Part shown: piece by piece, positions 61,874-64,000 of the stretch
Layout: the number at the start of each line of letters is the position of its first letter
Numbering within the stretch: the stretch's first letter is position 1
From: Aestuariispira insulae
Lineage (GTDB): Bacteria; Pseudomonadota; Alphaproteobacteria; UBA8366; Aestuariispiraceae
Direction: 5' to 3'
Length of the DNA: 64,000 bases
Assembly: GCF_003385955.1 (NCBI RefSeq)
Contig: NZ_QRDW01000001.1
Location: 62,001 to 126,000, forward strand
The notes under the pieces: generated by a model
What the model was told of the DNA's origin: nothing
What the model saw: only the letters and a program-made list of their open reading frames with translations
Database searches by the model: none
Program-made: the position numbers and the translations under genes

Positions 61874-61958
<85 letters not shown>

Positions 61959-62127: not shown

Positions 62128-62466
62128 TCAGGACGCCACGCGTTCCTCATACATATCAGCAAAAGTATTCAGCGCCAGGACTCTTGGGCCGTCCACCACA
62201 CGCGACGCCATGCAGGGTTTTTCAAAAACCACCTCAAAACGCACATGCGGAATACCAAAGGAATCGGAGGCAACAGAAAGAACACGGGCCGTCTCTATGG
62301 TCGCATCCGTCCGCTTCCGGCGGAAGGAGGATCCGGCCTTGATATACTCGACAGACTTTCCACGTTTAAAGAACATACCGGGCCGTTCCTGACCTTTATT
62401 CTTCAGATGGTCTGCTTGGGTCTTGCCCGACAACGGTACTGAAATATTTGACGTGTAGCCGAACAT
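62128..62466 (-). CDS. Conserved-looking hypothetical protein
   Basis: 112 residues, no signal peptide or membrane helix. I do not recognise a named family. The N-terminal 30 residues are polar; the core reads GMFFKRGKSVEYIKAGSSF, then ETARVLSVASDSFGIPHVRF (alternating pattern that suggests beta strands), and the C-terminus VLALNTFADMYEERVAS. A strong ribosome site, AAGGAG seven bases before the ATG, supports expression. A promoter with TAGAAT and a CtrA-like site lies about 70-105 bases upstream. It lies downstream of nnr and upstream of tRNA-Leu, on the same strand. Confidence 0.75.
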   Translation of the reverse strand: MFGYTSNISVPLSGKTQADHLKNKGQERPGMFFKRGKSVEYIKAGSSFRRKRTDATIETARVLSVASDSFGIPHVRFEVVFEKPCMASRVVDGPRVLALNTFADMYEERVAS

Positions 62467-62534
62467 AACCCACTCCTTAGAGTACTACTGCTTATTGCAG
62501 ATCGTCAACTTTGGCTCATTAACTTTTAGTCTCA

Positions 62535-62575
62535 ATTCTACACAATAACCGATGGAATCTTAAGCAATACTTAAC
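62535..62575 (-). promoter_or_regulatory. CtrA-like promoter of the 112-residue gene
   Basis: TTAA-N7-TTAAC at 62560-62575 (plus-strand reading) matches the full CtrA box. On the minus strand its distal TTAA lies in the -35 region, and TAGAAT (62535-62540) follows at an 18-base spacing from CTTAAG. A further TTAAC half-site lies at 62519-62523. Motif seen; CtrA control inferred. Confidence 0.5.
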
Positions 62576-62596
62576 ATAATCTTGAAATAAAACTCG

Positions 62597-64000
62597 CTAC
62601 CTATTGATTTCATTCAATATTTTCGGGATCAATGGAGATAGATCTTCAGCGATTAGGCCCGGCCCAGCCAGCTTCCCTGCTCTGCTATGCATCCAGGCGC
62701 CGATACTTGCCGACAGCAATGGTTCCCCCGTTTGAGCCAAAATTCCGGCAATGAGCCCCGCCAAAACATCCCCTGTCCCGGCCGTTGCCAAATCCGCCGA
62801 AGCCCCCGTATTGACAATGATTTCACCCTCCGGCGAGGCAATAAATGTATTCGCACCTTTCAAGAGGATAACAGCACCGGTTTTTTTTGCTGCAGCCAAG
62901 GCCAGCGCCAAATAGTCTTCGCCCCCAAACTCCGGGAACAGACGTTTGAATTCGCCAGCATGAGGGGTGAGCACACAGCCCCCATGAAGATTCTCAAATA
63001 AAAGTTCTGAATTTCCTTCAAAAAGACTGAGCGCGTCGGCATCCAAAACTGTTGGCACCTCCCGGCGCAAGGTCGCCAATACCTTTTCCATGCCGCCAAA
63101 ATCCGTGCCCAGTCCAGGCCCTATCAAACAAGCATTCACCCGTTCATCGGAAATGATTTCGCTGTAACCAAGCGTATCGCGATAGCCCTTGACCACGACA
63201 CTTTCCAGCGACACCCGATACAATGTGGAGGCTTTTTCGGGGCTGGCCAACAAGACATAGCCCGCACCGGCCCGTTGCGCAGCGCGCGCCGCCAGCCGGG
63301 CTGCGCCGGTCATTTCGACACCGGCCGCCATGGCCAGCATCCCACGGGAAAACTTATTGTCCCGCCATCCAGGCCGCGGTAACCGATCCCGCCAAAGCTC
63401 CAGATCATTTTCCCACAAGGTCGGGGCGATCTGATCCAGCACCTCCGCTGGAATACCGATATCAGCAACGACGACCTCACCACAGTGCAACGCCCCCGGA
63501 TAGGTCCGATGCGCTCGCTTTGGCCGAAAAAAAGTCACGGTAAGGTCCGCTGGCCGGGCGGTCCCCAGGATTTCTGTGCTATCACCATGCAAACCACTGG
63601 GAACATCAACCGCAACCACCGGCACCTGTCCGATGGCTTCAAGCGTCTCCGCCGCAATCCCCTCAACCGGTTTGGAAAGCCCCGCACCAAAAAGCGCATC
63701 CACAACCAACGTTGCCCCATCAAGGATCTCAACCGTCAGAGGGCGCACATCCTCGCCCCACCGCTGTGCCATGGTTGATGCGTCACCACGCAATTGCGAC
63801 CATTCCCCCAGCAGCCCCACCACCACTTGCCAACCCGCCTCCTTGAGCAGCCTGGCCACCACAAAACCATCCCCACCATTGTTGCCGGGGCCACATAAGA
63901 TGGCAGCTTTTCCGGACGGCCAGCGCGCCAGGATCTCCCGCGCAATGGCAGCGCCGGCGGCTTCCATCAAGGTCTCTCCGGTAATGCCCCGCGCCATAGC
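62597..64000 (-). CDS. nnr: Bifunctional NAD(P)H-hydrate repair enzyme Nnr (5' end outside window)
   Basis: Repairs damaged NAD(P)HX: the N-terminal YjeF_N epimerase interconverts R and S forms, and the C-terminal ribokinase-like domain dehydrates the S form with ADP. Seen are ILCGPGNNGGDGFVVARLL and VDALFGAGLSKPVEG for the epimerase, and KFSRGMLAMAAG, VLTPHAGEFKRLFPE, ILLKGANTFIASPEG and NTGASADLATAGTGDVLAGL for the dehydratase. The frame is still open at the last base; the first Met (63997) corresponds to an internal position (family: about 20 residues earlier), so the start lies beyond the window. Confidence 0.93.
   Translation of the reverse strand, partial: AMARGITGETLMEAAGAAIAREILARWPSGKAAILCGPGNNGGDGFVVARLLKEAGWQVVVGLLGEWSQLRGDASTMAQRWGEDVRPLTVEILDGATLVVDALFGAGLSKPVEGIAAETLEAIGQVPVVAVDVPSGLHGDSTEILGTARPADLTVTFFRPKRAHRTYPGALHCGEVVVADIGIPAEVLDQIAPTLWENDLELWRDRLPRPGWRDNKFSRGMLAMAAGVEMTGAARLAARAAQRAGAGYVLLASPEKASTLYRVSLESVVVKGYRDTLGYSEIISDERVNACLIGPGLGTDFGGMEKVLATLRREVPTVLDADALSLFEGNSELLFENLHGGCVLTPHAGEFKRLFPEFGGEDYLALALAAAKKTGAVILLKGANTFIASPEGEIIVNTGASADLATAGTGDVLAGLIAGILAQTGEPLLSASIGAWMHSRAGKLAGPGLIAEDLSPLIPKILNEINR

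Follow-up and report, generated by a model that had tools for sequence, protein, structure and literature searches.

The window analysed in this study, a stretch of 64,000 nt from the Aestuariispira insulae genome, carries a small gene separated by a gap of 130 nt from the co-directional nnr gene (Table 1). On its other side, a tRNA-Leu gene separates it from tig. Pfam was used to check the identities of nnr and clpP; tig, clpX, lon, MCD-like and aceE-like are names presumed from the sequences.

Table 1. Genes and sequence elements at the locus (positions within the window).
Feature	Position	Strand	Basis or remarks
Gene of 112 codons (112-aa ORF)	62128..62466	-	Conserved G, E, D, GIPHV[RK][YF], L and F; uncharacterised domain family
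CtrA-type full site TTAA-N7-TTAA	62560..62574	-	Spacing in excess in the genome and before homologues
Likely -10 (TATTGT), beginning 12 nt past the box	62542..62547	-	Distance repeated in homologues
-10 of the original prediction, TAGAAT, 19 nt from the box; less likely	62535..62540	-	Inspection, promoter scan, offset scan
AAGGAG, ribosome-binding site; the ATG (62466) follows after 6 nt	62473..62478	-	By inspection
Imperfect TCAA, perhaps a third half-site, 11 nt upstream of the first TTAA	62582..62585	-	Site with one mismatch, overlapping the exact site
GAATC, a GANTC sequence directly adjacent to the box	62555..62559	.	Inspection
nnr (NAD(P)HX epimerase/dehydratase), upstream, co-directional	62597..63997	-	Carb_kinase and YjeF_N (Pfam)
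tRNA-Leu (tag), downstream of the gene, before tig and clpP	61874..61958	-	
tig, downstream of tRNA-Leu	61796-60378		Name presumed from the sequence; clpP by Pfam

The elements listed in the original prediction are all present in the gap. The TTAA-N7-TTAAC motif claimed at 62560-62575 was found as TTAAGCAATACTTAAC on the plus strand; the gene strand reads the site as GTTAAGTATTGCTTAAG, the TTAA-N7-TTAA core being palindromic, and the terminal C of TTAAC (62575) lies on the plus strand, i.e. opposite the gene. TAGAAT occurs on the minus strand as claimed (plus-strand ATTCTA), the additional TTAAC half-site was located at 62519-62523 (+), and the proposed ribosome site was also identified.

Within the window, TTAA-N7-TTAAC occurs once (0.08 expected), with at least one match in 8 of 100 shuffled windows, and TTAA-N7-TTAA occurs twice (0.29 expected). 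The motif taken alone is only marginally above chance, and it is the comparative tests, i.e. those of spacing across the genome and of the upstream regions of homologues, that raise the case for a CtrA box above this level. The shuffling result would fit the view that the site is a chance match in an AT-rich region, and that the gene is driven by an ordinary sigma-70 promoter, TTAAGA-17-TAGAAT, without any part for CtrA, even if its relatives use CtrA. The TTAAGA/TAGAAT pair scores 9/12 (shuffles of the region yield 1.1 such sites on average), and the exact site is absent from the other 11 members of the family examined. Against this, the site has both the spacing that is in excess across the genome and the box-to--10 distance that is repeated before homologues (see below), and we judge a chance match to be unlikely.

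A raw count of sites was rejected as evidence, since the 49 TTAA-N7-TTAA sites of the genome are outnumbered by 93 copies of the reversed pattern; for this reason other spacings were taken as the control. In 800 kb of contig C1, spacing 7 was the commonest, with 12 sites, all 12 of them intergenic, compared with a mean of 4.0 sites (2.7 intergenic) for the 24 other spacings between 0 and 24; the intergenic share of the 800 kb is 11.8%. Genome-wide, 48 of the 49 sites were placed between genes by a cruder gene finder (all intergenic calls come from home-made gene finders). The pattern TAnnnT begins 11 nt past the site in 8 of 98 orientations genome-wide, the highest value among offsets 3-44, and 12 nt past it in 4 of 98, with 0-4 at the other offsets. 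The corresponding values for intergenic sites of wrong spacing were 2/74 and 4/74, and therefore only offset 11 exceeds the control.

Further support for a CtrA-type box comes from the gene content of the genome. It contains ctrA (C1:370288-370965), whose product shares 71% identity with Caulobacter CtrA. We identified 56 genes located at most 300 bp downstream of a site, including the gene of the window, and scanned the other 55 with Pfam. Signalling domains over the cut-off were detected in 16 of them: one ChpT-type histidine phosphotransferase, three PAS_5 proteins, five histidine-kinase-type proteins, four GGDEF/EAL proteins, one chemotaxis receptor, one STAS protein and one HAMP protein. 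Among 20 random C1 genes only one encodes a signalling domain, and that gene itself lies beside a site (3 of the 20 adjoin a site, and only this one of the three carries such a domain). In a study of predicted CtrA regulons, signal transduction is the category enriched in most organisms (PMC2877005). The genome encodes flagellins, but none of the 55 site neighbours was recognised as a flagellar structural gene. The suggestion that the protein may be tied to motility or to gene transfer agents was not borne out, as nothing linking them was found.

One of the TTAA-N7-TTAA sites (C1:377400-377414; locus L114) lies approximately 7 kb from ctrA; the two genes that flank it are divergent and encode a ChpT-type phosphotransferase and a DUF3553 protein. 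An input from GANTC methylation by CcrM was also considered. The genome encodes a RAMA-domain protein, which points to a CcrM-like enzyme (among 14 control genomes, a RAMA match was obtained only in Caulobacter). The GANTC sequence next to the box has no counterpart at this place in homologues, and this candidate was set aside.

Homologues of the gene were detected in 33 of 59 relatives, in 30 of 43 genomes of the order (19 of the 21 good ones) and in 73 of 385 genomes sampled from the class, the window's genome being counted in each case. Named carriers include Curvivirga, Marivibrio, Hwanghaeella and Pacificispira. A scan of contigs with the single window protein gave 78 candidate stretches, none of which was confirmed; a profile search of contigs yielded 30 loci. 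Of these loci (of up to approximately 8 kb) and the window, 31 in all, 24 contain a relative of the nnr of the window, 28 one of tig, 20 one of clpP and 17 one of clpX, many of the loci ending before clpX. In most loci examined the family sits between nnr and the protein-quality-control genes tig-clpP-clpX, some of them with an inserted MCD-like or aceE-like gene. Four loci (L044, L045, L053, L082) carry two members of the family near each other. The order nnr - gene - tig - clpP - clpX was also observed in a record titled Mesoflavibacter sp. (L058), presumably a name from the Bacteroidota; the title is probably wrong.

The upstream regions of 70 non-identical homologues were analysed, taken as up to 400 nt before the start of the domain because the start codons of homologues are uncertain. 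Five of the 70 have less than 150 nt upstream; these were kept in the counts based on 70 regions and in those for GANTC, and dropped from the counts based on 65 regions and on clusters. An exact TTAA-N7-TTAA is present in 14 of the 70 regions, compared with 0-4 for any other spacing from 0 to 20, and with at most one mismatch spacing 7 was found in 42 of 70 regions, compared with 9-23 at other spacings. In the same loci, the exact box was absent before tig (0/56), clpP (0/20), nnr (0/26), the MCD-like gene (0/5) and the aceE-like gene (0/1), and it preceded 3 of 164 other ORFs (4 of 164 for spacing 10).

The box is accompanied by a -10-like element at a preferred distance, TAnnnT beginning 11 or 12 nt past it at 9 of the 14 exact sites. 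The combination of a box with at most one mismatch and TAnnnT at 11-12 nt occurs in 23 of 65 regions, compared with 0-7 at spacings 2-6 and 8-15. When offsets from 3 to 31 were scanned in the 65 regions, 17 cases fell at 11 and 6 at 12, with 0-4 elsewhere. After the homologues had been collapsed into 38 clusters (60% identity), the exact box was still seen in 11 (0-3 for the controls) and the box with a -10 in 14 (0-5 for the controls), so that both the spacing and the distance to the -10 recur in many distinct lineages. Several homologues have a box that overlaps an upstream MCD-like gene at its 3' end, where codons constrain the sequence; 8 of the 14 exact boxes belong to loci in which an MCD-like gene was not detected (L009, L065, L066, L067, L207, L212, L217, L223). 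In two loci of the same genus (g3; L040 and L042), a conserved block before the gene includes a match to the DnaA box (TGTGGATAA).

The conserved distance between box and -10 indicates that TATTGT (62547-62542), and not TAGAAT, is the likely -10. The offset of TAGAAT shows no excess in homologues (1 region). Assuming that the first base of the -10 is at -12, we place the start of the transcript near 62535 with TATTGT as the -10, and the 5' base of the box would then lie at about -39 (about -46 with TAGAAT). No copy of a good -35 hexamer was found 16-18 nt before TATTGT. The promoter claimed in the original prediction is therefore to be modified: the CtrA-type box appears to be in an activator position, but its partner is more likely TATTGT than TAGAAT. 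Full CtrA motifs of Caulobacter are situated near -35, that of ctrA P2 at -39 (PMC4287350). Given the start proposed here, the candidate promoter would resemble P2 in the position of TTAA-N7-TTAA, whose 5' base would also be near -39. It differs from the CtrA-activated promoters of Caulobacter in that its target belongs to an uncharacterised family.

Since a CtrA-type site recurs before the gene, this gene is probably an unrecognised target of CtrA, the main regulator of the cell cycle in the Alphaproteobacteria, and we consider it likely that a CtrA-dependent promoter is located in the gap preceding it. The TTAA-N7-TTAA site, with its centre near -32, would be bound by phosphorylated CtrA and would stand in for a -35 hexamer, and housekeeping RNA polymerase would be helped onto TATTGT, so that the gene would be switched on at high CtrA~P. 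The binding of CtrA, activation and its timing are what we infer from this arrangement, as is any part that the protein may have in regulation.

The extra TTAAC half-site, which lies downstream of the box, could instead point to repression of the gene by CtrA, or the box could serve mainly for read-through into tRNA-Leu, tig and clpP, as these downstream genes are co-directional and one weak terminator-like site was found between. However, the box is at the distance typical for activation, whereas repressor half-sites of CtrA are placed over the -10 (PMC4287350), and we regard both possibilities as very improbable.

The comparison of orthologue upstream regions proposed in the original prediction gave a divided answer: the site recurs at the level of the order and the class, but not within the window's own family. 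There the exact site is present in 1 of 12 genomes (that of the window only) and a site with at most one mismatch in 5 of 12, which is near background; the 12 leave out Curvivirga (213 nt upstream, with no exact site) and G012. Four genomes of one genus of this family (G004, G009, G011 and G013; loci L030, L031, L033 and L035) share another conserved block of promoter-like character, TTAC-N6-TAAAGGATTGACC.

We also compared the presence of the site with that of ctrA, which was found in 48 of the 65 genomes searched. With regions of at least 300 nt, one entry per genome and near-duplicates left out, and with loci assigned to genomes in part by the length of the contig, the exact site was present in 10 of 44 genomes with ctrA, in 4 of 15 without a ctrA hit and in 1 of 8 good genomes without a hit; the values for at most one mismatch were 29/44, 11/15 and 6/8, respectively. 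Thus, no correlation of the site with the presence of ctrA was observed among the genomes compared (44 with ctrA and 15 without a hit), perhaps because some of these are draft genomes, or because another regulator is able to use the site. The conserved box might indeed be used by a regulator other than CtrA with a similar direct-repeat site, since the box and -10 also occur before homologues in genomes without a ctrA hit at 1e-50 (for example G154, G251, G340, G413 and G336). On the other hand, both the spacing and the position are those of CtrA (PMC4287350), ctrA was found in most of the genomes searched, and several of those lacking a hit are drafts; a different regulator therefore seems to us quite improbable. 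Three genomes of one family (f108; G340, G251 and G417) carry a near-match box with a -10 before the gene. No close ctrA was found in G340 (a single contig) and G251, in which the best hits show 39-40% identity, and the ctrA hit of G417 covers only residues 1-165 of 226.

The protein was originally described as unknown, which agrees with our searches: nothing exceeded the cut-off in Pfam, in a scan that included 32 members, NCBIfam and PHROGs gave no match at all, and a profile search of the PDB produced no matches up to E 10. AlphaFold modelled the core confidently (86-94 pLDDT for 10-residue blocks from 41 to 110), as beta strands with one short helix. The protein is predicted to be a small one-domain protein with an SH3/BAH-like beta-barrel of about 75 residues. 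The first model, that of the window protein, was nearest to BAH domains (best Foldseek E 0.015; Z up to 7.8, with an rmsd of 3.4 over 84 residues), scores that are within the range common for models without a clear match. With the second model, that of a minimal member, Sm, Tudor, BAH and unrelated proteins ranked together, none of them significantly. The best match in a viral library had an E of 0.0011. BAH was absent from the Pfam matches of the 32 members at E up to 1, a search in which the filters of HMMER drop weak matches. A BAH fold was suggested by the first model but not by the second; the likeness to the BAH domain is a tentative one of fold only, without a significant match. Among the matches listed in a literature search on bacterial BAH domains, none was relevant by title.

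ClpXP degrades CtrA in Caulobacter. It could be imagined that the family is an unrecognised, lineage-wide CtrA target and that its beta-barrel serves the machinery encoded next to it (trigger factor, ClpXP or Lon) as an adaptor timed by the cell cycle, feeding back on proteolysis, an idea that we put forward as highly speculative and improbable. Among the matches listed in a literature search on CtrA with clpP, trigger factor and conserved hypothetical proteins, none was relevant by title, and titles and the beginnings of abstracts revealed no report that CtrA regulates this gene, a survey short of a full literature check.

The promoter type is already known; for the gene family, no characterisation was found in the libraries searched. 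What the analysis points to is a recurring CtrA-type promoter, present in many alphaproteobacterial lineages before a family that matched no Pfam, NCBIfam or PHROGs model, and the distance from box to -10 supplies an easy criterion by which CtrA-activated promoters of this group can be searched for. If control by CtrA is true, a widely kept protein of an uncharacterised family would join the cell-cycle programme.
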